In this document: positions 14,535-45,348 of the stretch, in pieces
Position numbering within the stretch: the stretch's first letter is position 1
How the letters are laid out: each line of letters begins with the position of its first letter
Assembly: GCA_020048055.1 (NCBI GenBank)
Contig: JAIFNA010000007.1
Coordinates: 62,001-126,000 of the forward strand
DNA from: Arcobacter sp.
GTDB lineage: Bacteria > Campylobacterota > Campylobacteria > Campylobacterales > Arcobacteraceae
Length of the DNA stretch: 64,000 nt
Direction: 5' to 3'
Notes under the pieces: generated by a model
Told to the model about the DNA's origin: nothing
The model's input: the letters and a program-made list of their open reading frames with translations, nothing else
Databases searched by the model: none
Translations under genes and position numbers: made by a program

Positions 14535-14624
14535 GGACAGGTGGGTGAGTGGCTTAAACCAGCACCCTGCTAAGGTGTCGTATCCGCAAGGGTACCGAGA
14601 GTTCAAATCTCTCCCTGTCCGCCA
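14535..14624 (+). tRNA. tRNA-Ser (anticodon GCT)
   Basis: A 90-base tRNA. The acceptor stem GGACAGG pairs with CCTGTCC, followed by discriminator G and an encoded CCA. The anticodon stem GCACC/GGTGT encloses loop CTGCTAA with anticodon GCT at 14569-14571, reading AGC/AGU serine codons. The long variable arm (CGTATCCGCAAGGGTACC region) is characteristic of tRNA-Ser, and the T-loop GTTCAAATC is intact. It lies immediately left of the nif island. Confidence 0.97.
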
Positions 14625-14879
14625 CTATTAAAAAATCAAATATATTTAACAAATTAGTTCCGAATAAAGCTTTTGAAAACATTTTTAAGCACTCTCACTT
14701 TCGTTGCAATTTATGTATTAAGTTTTGATTTAATGCACCATTTTCAAAACATAATCTTTTATAGCTTTTGAATTTTTAATAAATTTTAAATTTTTGTTTC
14801 TATTTTTAGCTTCTTTGAGGTTTAATTTTTTATTTGGAATAAATCTTGCATAGTATATTAAAAATACTGGATACAAACA
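14625..14879. other. Intergenic region between tRNA-Ser and the nif island
   Basis: 255 AT-rich bases without a convincing ORF. The right end holds a sigma-54-type promoter (listed separately). I looked for a repeated tRNA 3' end that would mark an integration site and saw none here or at the other island edge. Confidence 0.5.
14835..14850 (+). promoter_or_regulatory. Sigma-54 promoter for SIR2-like/clpX operon
   Basis: TTGGAATAAATCTTGCAT: GG at 14836-14837 and GC at 14848-14849, with exactly 10 bases between, matching the -24/-12 (GG-N10-GC) rule and the TTGCA -12 core. The start codon of the SIR2-like gene lies 31 bases downstream of the -12 element, so the leader is short. I saw no TGT-N10-ACA NifA site upstream. 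Confidence 0.75.
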
Positions 14880-15701
14880 ATGCAAAAGATAAAAGAAAAG
14901 CTTCAAAGTGGAGAGTTAGTTCCTTTTTTAGGAATGGGGATATTTAAAGATACAGTTTGTAGTGATGGGACAACTTTACCATTTGATAGTGATAGCTTTA
15001 GTTTAGCGCTTAACAATGGTCGAGCGATGAGTCCTAGGCTTATGTATGAATATTCAAGGGTTGCCATGAGTCTAGAACAACGAAAAGGGCGAGAATATAT
15101 CACAGGTATGACAAACCATATCTATGCTTCAAAAGAGTATCCACTTCCTTTAGCTTATAAGGTTTTAAAAACAATCAAACCAAAATACTTAATCGATACG
15201 AATCTTGATGATAGTAGTACTAAAGTGTACGAAGATATGGCTCACTTTATGGTGACGGGGACTGCTCGAATTATGGGTGGATATGATAGATTTATCGTTT
15301 ATCTTTATGATGTGGATACGAAAACTTATAACAAAGTGGACAAAGAGGAACTAAACGAAACTCTCCCAATTATCTTCAAACCGATGGGTTGCATGATACC
15401 AAATAAAGATTTTATCGTGAGTGATGCAGATTTTGTTGATTGGTTGACTGAGGCTATGGGTGGATATGGATTGCCACCATTTTTAAAAGGTTACAAAAAA
15501 GAGAAATCATATCTTTTTTTAGGTGTTGATTTTAGCCGTGATACTTTTAGAATGGTCGCAAATGAGATAACTTTAGATTTGGCTGGCGGATATGTTGTTG
15601 ATGGGAAAGAGGAACTTTCAAAAAAAGAGTTGAAATTTATCAAAATGCACAGTTTGGAGTCGATAAAAGAAGATTTAGGAACTTTTTTAAAGGATTTGTA
15701 A
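14880..15701 (+). CDS. SIR2-like (SIR2_2 fold) protein of the nif island
   Basis: 273 residues. The N-terminus 'GELVPFLGMGIF' matches the nucleotide-binding start of SIR2-like proteins (LVPFLGAGvS). 'PKYLIDTNLDD' matches the TTNYD region, 'IIFKPMGCMIPNKDFIVSDADFVDWL' matches the K-L-H-G-s...lT..dy block, and 'SYLFLGVDFSRDTFR' matches the final FlGysl-D motif. The catalytic-position His is Met (PMG instead of LHG), and the first Gly-Ala-Gly is G-M-G, so NAD hydrolysis is doubtful. It is translationally coupled (TAATG) to a ClpX paralogue behind a sigma-54 promoter. By inference it could be an NAD(H) or redox sensor or an adaptor in nitrogenase turnover. It could equally be a defence-type SIR2 relative. 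Confidence 0.7.
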   Translation: MQKIKEKLQSGELVPFLGMGIFKDTVCSDGTTLPFDSDSFSLALNNGRAMSPRLMYEYSRVAMSLEQRKGREYITGMTNHIYASKEYPLPLAYKVLKTIKPKYLIDTNLDDSSTKVYEDMAHFMVTGTARIMGGYDRFIVYLYDVDTKTYNKVDKEELNETLPIIFKPMGCMIPNKDFIVSDADFVDWLTEAMGGYGLPPFLKGYKKEKSYLFLGVDFSRDTFRMVANEITLDLAGGYVVDGKEELSKKELKFIKMHSLESIKEDLGTFLKDL

Positions 15702-16888
15702 TGTCTAACATACTAGCTTGTGATTTTTGCGGAAAAGAGGAAATTCAGGTCGAAAAAATATTTAGTGCCGAAAAATCAAATATTTGCAATGAATGTGTCG
15801 ATACTTGCTTTCATATTTTAGATAAAACAAGAGTTCAAAAAGAGAAAGCCGAATTTCATAAAGGGATTTTAATCCCTACAAAAATCAAAGAGCACTTAGA
15901 TAAATATGTGATAGGTCAAGATGAGGCAAAAAAAGTTCTCTCAGTTGCCCTATACAATCACTACAAAAGAATCGATAAACCAACCTTTAAAAATGTCGAG
16001 ATAGAAAAATCAAATATTATGCTCATAGGTCCAACGGGAAGTGGAAAAACACTCCTTGCAAAGTCACTAGCGAAAATAATGAATGTTCCATTTGCAATAG
16101 CAGATGCTACAAGTTTAACAGAAGCAGGATATGTTGGAGAAGATGTCGAATCTATTCTATCAAGACTTCTTGTTGCAAGTGATTTTGATGTACAGAGAGC
16201 TCAAAAAGGAATAGTGTATATCGATGAGATAGATAAAATCGCCAATAAAAGTGAAACAGCATCAAGTGGAAGAGATGTTAGTGGTGAGGGTGTTCAACAA
16301 GGACTTTTGAAGATTCTAGAGGGTGCTGAGGTGTATGTCCCACTCAAAGGTGCTAAAAAAAACTCTTCAACTGAAACAGTGCTTTTAGATACAACACATA
16401 TACTTTTTATCTGTGGTGGTTCATTTGTGGGTCTTGGTGGTGATGATGAAAAAAGCAAAAAGTTTAAGCCTAAAAAGATGGGATTTTTAAAAGAAGATGA
16501 GAGTGAAAAGAAAAGTAAGAAAGAGATTGAATCAAAAGATTTGATGAAATTTGGACTTATCCCTGAATTTATCGGAAGAATTCCTGTGATTGCTTCACTC
16601 AATGAGCTTAGTAGTGAGGATTTGATAAGAGTGCTCAGGGAACCTAAAAATGCGATAATCAAACAATACCAAGCACTTTTTGAGCTAGATGGAATTGAAC
16701 TTGCATTTGAAGCTGAAGTTATAGAATATATTGCAAATCTTGCAAAAGAGAAAGGTGTCGGAGCTAGAGGTTTAAGAAGTATTATAGAAAAAGCGATGCT
16801 CCCTTTGCAGTATGAACTTCCAGCTGATGAAACGATAGAGAAATATACTCTTAGTTTAGAGTATGCAAAAAGTATTTTAGAAAAGTAG
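15701..16888 (+). CDS. clpX: ClpX-type AAA+ unfoldase, nif-associated paralogue
   Basis: 395 residues. The N-terminal C4 zinc domain (C7, C10, C29, C32) is followed by an AAA+ domain with Walker A 'GPTGSGKTLLAKSL', pore loop GYVGED, Walker B 'GIVYIDEIDK' and sensor 'LIPEFIGRIPVIASL'. The RKH loop of housekeeping ClpX is replaced by 'GAKKNSSTE', and the ClpP-binding IGF loop reads KKMGFL in a Lys/Glu-rich stretch. Azotobacter vinelandii also carries a second clpX in its nif cluster, reported to act on NifB and NifEN. By inference this paralogue removes nif maturation proteins. A housekeeping clpX is expected elsewhere. Confidence 0.88.
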   Translation: MSNILACDFCGKEEIQVEKIFSAEKSNICNECVDTCFHILDKTRVQKEKAEFHKGILIPTKIKEHLDKYVIGQDEAKKVLSVALYNHYKRIDKPTFKNVEIEKSNIMLIGPTGSGKTLLAKSLAKIMNVPFAIADATSLTEAGYVGEDVESILSRLLVASDFDVQRAQKGIVYIDEIDKIANKSETASSGRDVSGEGVQQGLLKILEGAEVYVPLKGAKKNSSTETVLLDTTHILFICGGSFVGLGGDDEKSKKFKPKKMGFLKEDESEKKSKKEIESKDLMKFGLIPEFIGRIPVIASLNELSSEDLIRVLREPKNAIIKQYQALFELDGIELAFEAEVIEYIANLAKEKGVGARGLRSIIEKAMLPLQYELPADETIEKYTLSLEYAKSILEK

Positions 16889-43300: not shown

Positions 43301-44827
43301 ATGCTTGGTCAATGTGATTTATGCTTAAAACAAAAAGAATTAGAAGTTTTGTATGAGATTGCAACTTTGCTTGCTGACTCAAGGGATACACAAAAATCTT
43401 TGGAAAAATCATTATTAAGTCTTAAAAATACACTTGAATTGCAAAATTGTGTTATCTATAAGCTTGAAGATGAAATGTTAAATATTTATTCATCAATCAA
43501 TTTTAATAAGTACCAAAAAATTATTTCTGAGTATCGTATTGGTGAGGGAGCTACTGGACTTGCAGCAAAAAGTGGTGAGCCGGTTATTATAGAAAATATC
43601 CATAATGACATACTTTTTTTAAACAAATCAGGCAATAGGAATAGTGAAACTATTTCATACATTGCTGTACCGATGTTTGTTGATAATAAGATCTTTGGCG
43701 TTTTGGCAGCCAATTTAAGTAGGTCTACTAAGATTGGATTTGATGAAACAGTAAGAATATTATCTATTATAAGCACGCTATTTGCTCAATTTATATATTC
43801 ACATATAGTAGTAGAGCAAGATAAAGAAAGACTCAGAGAGCTCAAACTTTATTACAAAATGGAATGGGATTCAAAAGTTCATAATTTTGGTGATATTATA
43901 GGAAAAAGTCCAAAGATGGAAGATGTATATAAAGTGATAGATAGAATTGCTGGGAGTAATGTCACTATTCTTGTTCGAGGGGAAACTGGTACAGGAAAAG
44001 AGCTCGTGGCTGCTTCGATTCACAAAAGAAGTAAAAGAAAAGATGAACCGTTTATCAAACTCAATTGTGCTGCTATTACTGATACATTACTTGAAAGTGA
44101 ACTTTTTGGACATGAAAAAGGTGCTTTTACTGACGCAAAAGAGACAAGAAAAGGAAGATTTGAGCTTGCTGATGGAGGAACATTATTTCTAGATGAGATA
44201 GGAGACATTAGTGCTTCTGCTCAAGTAAAACTTTTAAGAGTGCTTCAAGAGAGAGAGTTTGAGCGAGTTGGCGGAAGTAAAACTATCAAAGTAAATGTTC
44301 GTCTAGTAGCAGCAACAAATAGAAATTTAGAACAAATGGTTAAAGATGGAACTTTTCGGGAAGATTTGTATTATAGACTTAATGTTATCCCAATTGATTT
44401 ACCACCACTGAGAGAAAGAGGGGAAGATATAGAACTTCTTGTAAACTTTTTCCTTGAGCGAAGTATGAAAAATCATAAAAAAATGGTTGTAATTACTGAT
44501 GATGCGATGTTAAAACTTATTCAATATCTGTGGCCTGGAAATGTTAGAGAGTTGGAAAATACTATTGAAAGAATTGTATTGATGGGTGACGAAGATGGAA
44601 TTAGTGCTTCTGATATGCTACTTTTGCTACCAGCACTGAATAATAAGATATTAAACAATGAGCATATAGGGATGATTAAAAATAAATCATTGGAGGAGAC
44701 TGAAAAGGAAGCTATTCAAAAAGCACTTCAAGATTGTAATAATAATCAAAGTGAAGCAGCCAAACAATTAGAAATAACACTAAGACAAATAGGATATAAA
44801 ATTAAAATGTACGGATTAAAAATATGA
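43301..44827 (+). CDS. nifA: Sigma-54-dependent activator NifA
   Basis: 508 residues. The GAF domain (~20-170) has '[23 protein letters not shown]'. The AAA+ domain has Walker A '[16 protein letters not shown]', '[15 protein letters not shown]' and Walker B '[12 protein letters not shown]'. The C-terminal Fis-type helix-turn-helix is '[24 protein letters not shown]'. The sigma-54 contact loop is GAFTDA instead of the usual GAFTGA. The Cys motif that makes alpha-proteobacterial NifA O2-sensitive is absent between the domains, but a C5-x2-C8 pair stands at the N-terminus. No NifL is encoded nearby. Confidence 0.92.
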
Positions 44828-45348
44828 TTTATAAAGGTGAACAATTTGAACTTTGCGATGATTTCATTGATGTTGGTTATATGGCTGAAAATATTTTAGT
44901 TGAAGATTTTTATGGGAATAAAATCATACTAGAAAGAAGCAATAGCGATAAAACAATGAGTTTATTTATTTCGATTCCTGAACTTGGAAATGGTTTTTTG
45001 GATGAAATAATTCAATTAGATAAGTTAATGAAAACTATACAAATACCCATTGGATGTTTTTTGATATTTAATGAGATGATAATCGATAAAATAGCTTTAA
45101 AAAATAGATTAGAGAAATTTGAGATAGTTTTTGATGTAGAAAATGAATTTGGAAATATGTATGGTATGAAAATTATTAATGGAACATTCAAAGATAAATT
45201 AACAAAAGGATTATTTTTAATTAATAAAGATGGCTCGGTTTTTTATTTAGATATTCCTGATGATATGGAAAAAAGAATTAATACTGAAAGACTTATTGTT
45301 GAGTTGAATAAAGCTTATTTGACATATACTGGTATTGGATGTCATTAA
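44824..45348 (+). CDS. Cys-less redoxin-fold protein downstream of nifA
   Basis: 174 residues. The N-terminal 'DVGYMAENILVEDFYGNKIIL' resembles the peroxiredoxin start (vGd-xApdF-l-d-x-x-G), and 'KTMSLFISIPELGNGFLDEIIQLDKLM' is placed like the active-site strand and helix without a Cys. 'GLFLINKDGSVFYLDI' matches the late strand pair. The only active-region Cys (in 'PIGCFLIF') is off-site. It overlaps nifA by 4 bases (ATGA), so a role in NifA signalling is plausible. It is similar in design to the 23414-23911 protein. Confidence 0.65.
   Translation: MIYKGEQFELCDDFIDVGYMAENILVEDFYGNKIILERSNSDKTMSLFISIPELGNGFLDEIIQLDKLMKTIQIPIGCFLIFNEMIIDKIALKNRLEKFEIVFDVENEFGNMYGMKIINGTFKDKLTKGLFLINKDGSVFYLDIPDDMEKRINTERLIVELNKAYLTYTGIGCH

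Follow-up and report, generated by a model that had tools for sequence, protein, structure and literature searches.

Why does a nif cluster open with a gene for a SIR2-like protein that overlaps the gene for a second ClpX? The question is posed by a 64,000-nt stretch of DNA (hereafter, the window) of an Arcobacter sp., and it touches a wider one: the removal of unstable, oxygen-sensitive cofactor-assembly proteins in diazotrophs is poorly understood and matters for the transfer of nitrogenase to new hosts. The occurrence of a second unfoldase together with a SIR2-fold protein in the nif clusters of Arcobacter and Sulfurimonas relatives points to a putative quality control system dedicated to nitrogenase.

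The gene pair and its place in the nif cluster

The genome containing the window is 2.0 Mb in size and belongs to Campylobacterota (Arcobacteraceae-like). The best named match at the SIR2-like locus is an Arcobacteraceae MAG, with 93% identity of the SIR2-like protein. The complete nif cluster starts with the SIR2-like gene (14880) and closes with nifA followed by a Tpx-like gene (45348); directly ahead of it are pyrF and a tRNA-Ser gene. The tRNA-Ser(GCT) gene, located at 14535–14624 immediately 5′ of the cluster, may mark an island insertion boundary. The gene pair proposed in the sequence-only reading of this DNA was confirmed as two open reading frames, the stop codon of the SIR2-like gene and the ATG of clpX2 overlapping as TAATG. 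The next gene after clpX2 is nifN, and clpX2 stands among cofactor-assembly genes (nifN, nifX, nifW and nifZ). The main features are listed in Table 1.

Table 1. Features of the SIR2-like/clpX2 locus and of the distal end of the nif cluster (positions in the window).
Feature	Position	Strand	Remarks
−24/−12 (sigma-54 type) element TGGAATAAATCTTGCA	14835..14850	+	45 nt before the SIR2-like ATG; 9/12 consensus positions
SIR2-like gene	14880..15701	+	273 aa; Pfam SIR2_2, structure model and Foldseek, motif counts
P-M-G codons in place of the SIR2-enzyme His-Gly motif	15381..15389	+	aa 168–170 of SIR2-like
clpX2	15701..16888	+	395 aa; nif-clade ClpX paralogue; NCBIfam TIGR00382 above cut-off
Pore-1 loop GYVGED of ClpX2	16127..16144	+	intact; 54/54 ClpX2
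Pore-2 residue corresponding to E. coli T199	16268..16270	+	Gly here and in 54/54 ClpX2; Thr in 24/24 other ClpX
RKH-loop position	16355..16363	+	Lys-Lys-Asn here; H230 to Asn/Ser in 54/54 ClpX2; His in 23/24 other ClpX
MGF, ClpP-docking (IGF-type) loop of ClpX2	16478..16486	+	motif scan
nifA	43301..44827	+	Pfam; in relatives the usual upstream neighbour of the module
pseudo-Tpx gene	44824..45348	+	174 aa; fold of a thiol peroxidase lacking the catalytic Cys; YTGIGCH at the C-terminus; behind nifA

Two other products of the cluster were noted. The region 19864–20265, flanked by flavodoxin and nifW, encodes a PII-like protein that scores far under the PII equivalog cut-offs. The region 23923–24486 (reverse strand) encodes a 187-aa protein without an assigned family, which represents an unnamed nif-cluster family; a similar protein with KEF..NNLQWQ, YGYRGS and LPPKA motifs adjoins nifS in Sulfurimonas-type loci (L067, L074, L085 and L090).

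A sigma-54 promoter had been claimed ahead of the pair, and a −24/−12-type element, TGGAATAAATCTTGCA, is indeed located there. Its match quality was reached by 1.25% of shuffles and is weak taken alone; in the window, nifE, nifH and nifQ/V are preceded by comparable elements, as is the SIR2-like gene in about nine relatives, at a distance of 45–71 nt. A search for a TGT-N10-ACA NifA site upstream of the SIR2-like gene gave none. Putative control of SIR2-clpX2 by NifA is likely.

The SIR2-like protein and its coupling to ClpX2

The SIR2-like protein passes the Pfam SIR2_2 model (PF13289) narrowly, with 26.3 bits versus a cut-off of 24.5. The fold noted earlier was confirmed, Pfam and Foldseek both giving SIR2. 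The TN-D Asn, retained in nearly all Campylobacterota SIR2-like proteins, is present, and the GxG loop survives in part. The GAGxS motif is changed, most of these proteins reading G[ML]G[VI]F there. The replacement of His-Gly by PMG was verified and extends to the relatives. The catalytic His is absent in 80/80 Campylobacterota SIR2-like proteins, which have Met or Leu at that position, and the region of the motif reads KPMG or KPLG in nearly all of them. In seven Pseudomonadota nif SIR2 homologues, the TN-D Asn is replaced by Trp, and the His position is occupied by His in four and by Tyr, Leu or Ile in three. Because different branches drop different catalytic residues, it is unlikely that the family depends on NAD chemistry, and the pattern of residues suggests a non-catalytic role for SIR2-like.

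The distribution of the genes was surveyed in 397 Campylobacterota genomes. An intact SIR2-like gene was found in 71 genomes and nifD in 74, with 70 genomes carrying both (Fisher 8e-72; species of the same phylum are not independent, so Fisher values express the strength of linkage and not independent events). ClpX2 was found in 56 genomes, 55 of which also possess SIR2-like. The association of both genes with nif is therefore upheld, nifD being present in 70/71 SIR2-like-positive and 55/56 ClpX2-positive genomes. In nearly all ClpX2-positive genomes, the SIR2-like gene and clpX2 are adjacent or have clpP2 alone between them: the distance is ≤60 nt in 31 genomes and 600–715 nt in 23, and in the loci read the longer gap contains a complete clpP.

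Read from the side of ClpX2, the pairing recurs in other nif clusters; read from the side of SIR2-like, it does not always hold. ClpX2 is missing in 16 of the 71 SIR2-like-positive genomes, mainly those of Sulfurospirillum with the order nifA-SIR2, and four Sulfurimonas-type genomes have the order pseudo-Tpx-SIR2-nifS with no ClpX2 anywhere. The SIR2-like genes examined in rhizobia, Methylococcus and Paraburkholderia also belong to nif operons, without a clpX close by; most of the Pseudomonadota loci read have the gene at the end of a nifB operon. This one-sided coupling suggests SIR2-like to be a general nif accessory, not simply an adaptor of ClpX2. Conversely, 19 of the 74 nifD-positive genomes lack ClpX2, which is therefore not needed for fixation.

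These data bear directly on the proposal that SIR2-like serves ClpX2 as its own adaptor or gate, which binds NAD(H) or senses redox and passes nitrogenase proteins to the unfoldase. The overlapping genes, the presence of SIR2-like, close at hand, in almost every ClpX2-positive genome and the retained TN-D Asn and GxG remnant are what such a gate would lead one to expect, but the proposal is doubtful, given the Campylobacterota genomes and Pseudomonadota loci where SIR2-like occurs without ClpX2 and the changes in GAGxS and at the His position. An obligate adaptor is rejected by the distribution, and the role of recogniser for ClpX2 assigned to the protein in the sequence-only reading is not supported. 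NAD(H) or redox gating likewise found no support, with two of the motifs altered and Trp in place of the Asn in the Pseudomonadota homologues.

A 151–173 aa protein without a Pfam match, NifX-like by eye, is encoded 5′ of the SIR2-like gene in Sulfuricurvum/Sulfurimonas (L068, 8763–9284; L089, 9476–9931).

ClpX2, its rewritten loops and its putative ClpP partners

The product of clpX2 is a ClpX equivalog match (TIGR00382, 515.7 bits versus a cut-off of 370.75). Its C4 zinc finger, Walker A and B motifs, GYVGED and MGF are all intact, in agreement with what had been noted for the Walker motifs and the two loops. A housekeeping ClpX is also encoded in the genome. In the tree, ClpX2 proteins constitute one clade with 100/100 support, apart from the Campylobacterota housekeeping ClpX; this topology rules out that clpX2 arose recently by duplication of the genome's own housekeeping gene.

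Housekeeping ClpX and ClpX2 have the zinc finger, the Walker motifs, GYVG and the ClpP loop in common, and differ in that the ssrA contacts T199 and H230 are replaced in every ClpX2. When 54 ClpX2 were compared with 24 other ClpX, the positions fixed differently were found to concentrate in the pore-2 and RKH loops. The RKH loop, believed earlier to be lost, is changed instead and reads K-K-N in the window and R-K-N or R-K-S in the ClpX2 clade; the replacement of T199 by Gly in pore loop 2 is an additional change that had escaped the earlier note. P231 is substituted with Ser or Ala (Pro in 24/24 other ClpX). No change is seen at Y153 and V154, and position R228 holds Arg or Lys. In E. coli ClpX, T199 bonds the ssrA carboxylate and H230 contacts the tag, and the mutations T199A or H230A raise KM about 100-fold (PMC7652416). 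Since T199 is replaced by Gly and H230 by Asn or Ser, ClpX2 is predicted to be ssrA-blind with unfolding retained, the loss of ssrA reading being deduced from the E. coli mutants. The motif set and the loop changes agree with the earlier description of this ClpX as a possible ClpP-binding unfoldase with altered substrate reading.

The ClpP-docking loop looks intact in most ClpX2 ([MVL]GF); the MGF loop by itself is no proof of proteolysis by ClpX2. The genome of the window encodes one ClpP, the housekeeping one. In Sulfurimonadaceae, the operon has the order SIR2-clpP2-clpX2, and clpP2 is present in the operon in 28/80 loci. Genomes with the nif ClpP2 possess two full-length ClpP types, and the active site of ClpP2 is intact, with the catalytic residues kept. 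In one Sulfuricurvum MAG, two contigs (L068 and L069) carry two SIR2-clpP2-clpX2-nifB-nifV copies with identical ClpP2, representing either a duplication or an assembly artefact.

With a probability of roughly 60%, the locus represents a Clp module dedicated to nif, in its Arcobacteraceae version, composed of an ssrA-blind ClpX2 with ClpP and a non-catalytic SIR2-like accessory. ClpX2 would be an AAA+ unfoldase able to dock on ClpP, its partner being the single housekeeping ClpP here and the nif-specific ClpP2 of the same operon in Sulfurimonadaceae. With both degron-reading loops rewritten, it would pass over ssrA-tagged waste and have a small number of nif clients, the likeliest being unstable proteins of cofactor assembly, e.g., NifB and NifEN. 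SIR2-like would participate in the assembly or turnover pathway by binding and not by NAD chemistry, including where ClpX2 is absent.

A different function for ClpX2, that of an unfoldase or assembly chaperone serving nitrogenase maturation with no proteolysis, appears unlikely. ClpX is able to remodel proteins without ClpP, and the position of clpX2 among cofactor-assembly genes would suit such a chaperone; however, the ClpP-docking loop is kept, and a nif-specific ClpP2 with an intact active site is encoded in the same operon in 28/80 loci.

Martinez-Noel et al. (2011) reportedly described a ClpX2 in the nif cluster of Azotobacter vinelandii. Like the window's ClpX2, it is a second ClpX encoded in a nif cluster, and it is reported to control the levels of NifB and NifEN (PMC3916325). 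Its gene comes after nifWZM, with no mention of a SIR2 neighbour, whereas the present clpX2 is accompanied by the pseudo-Tpx and SIR2-like genes and, in some relatives, by clpP2. NifB and NifEN are named as the likeliest clients of ClpX2 by analogy with A. vinelandii, and a shared function of the two proteins is likewise to be understood as an analogy. If the module is real, what has been observed in one species with Azotobacter ClpX2 would become a general testable class, defined by a nif ClpX clade with its loop signature and, for some lineages, a nif ClpP.

Relatives of the SIR2-like protein and the pseudo-Tpx partner

SIR2 family proteins are known from nif systems of other bacteria. Rcc03262 of R. 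capsulatus is NifA-dependent, msi351 of M. loti belongs to a NifA/RpoN operon and ZMO1821 of Zymomonas is encoded in the nif cluster. These proteins, together with those of rhizobial nifB operons, are members of the SIR2-like family located in nif operons. The protein of the window shares 22–28% identity with the plasmid-borne homologues, and the members of these other nif systems differ from it in having no adjacent clpX, Trp in place of the Asn and, in some, a retained His. A ClpX2 and SIR2 proteins of nif clusters had each been recorded before; a search of the open-access literature, which covers few subscription journals, found no account of the gene order SIR2-(ClpP2)-ClpX2, of substitutions at the ssrA contacts or of a pseudo-Tpx partner. 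The widespread, uncharacterised family of nif SIR2 proteins gains a genomic context.

The AlphaFold model of SIR2-like (pLDDT 83.5) was matched by Foldseek to the SIR2 domains of the NADases DSR2, ThsA and KomC (best E 1.7e-9, probability 1.0, TM about 0.6). A PDB sequence search with a wider SIR2 alignment reached the same three proteins, mostly weakly, and a search with a narrow alignment gave chance matches only. Unlike these NADases, SIR2-like has no catalytic His, an altered GAGxS motif and a stand-alone domain, and is located outside a defence locus. PADLOC gave no family match, and a defence-system reading was rejected. That SIR2-like is an anti-phage, NAD-consuming effector or an active deacylase residing in the nif cluster by chance is hardly credible, because, although its nearest solved folds are those of defence NADases, the missing PADLOC match, the loss of the His in 80/80 Campylobacterota proteins, the near-perfect co-occurrence with nifD and the nif regulation seen in other bacteria all oppose it.

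The third partner of the module is a pseudo-Tpx. It was found in 52/397 genomes, of which 52/52 carry SIR2-like and 51/52 ClpX2; among SIR2-like-positive genomes it tracks ClpX2 (51/1/4/15, p 6e-11). In about 51/80 loci, its gene lies ≤152 nt upstream of the SIR2-like gene, while in the window it stands apart. A search for pseudo-Tpx on plasmids did not find it. The fold is like that of thiol peroxidase Tpx (model pLDDT 87.6, TM about 0.8), and the protein differs from Tpx in the absence of the conserved (peroxidatic) Cys from the active site and in the addition of a near-invariant C-terminus, Y[TN]GxGCH(G), which contains the sole invariant Cys of 20 aligned sequences. The model leaves the final residues disordered, as would be expected for a short linear signal, and it can be hypothesised that ClpX2 reads this tail. 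A proteolysis pathway built of three degenerate or rewired folds, where the YTGxGCH(G) tail would be a degron or tether for the ClpX2 loops, and the pseudo-SIR2 would present nitrogenase assembly proteins for removal by ClpX2 acting together with ClpP or ClpP2, is speculative and on present evidence improbable.

A second Tpx-like protein of the cluster, encoded at 23414–23911 on the reverse strand of the window, weakly matches thiol peroxidase models. In one genome without nifD, decayed pseudo-Tpx and SIR2-like remnants lie side by side (G272:C1:1431039-1431904), as traces of a lost nif cluster.
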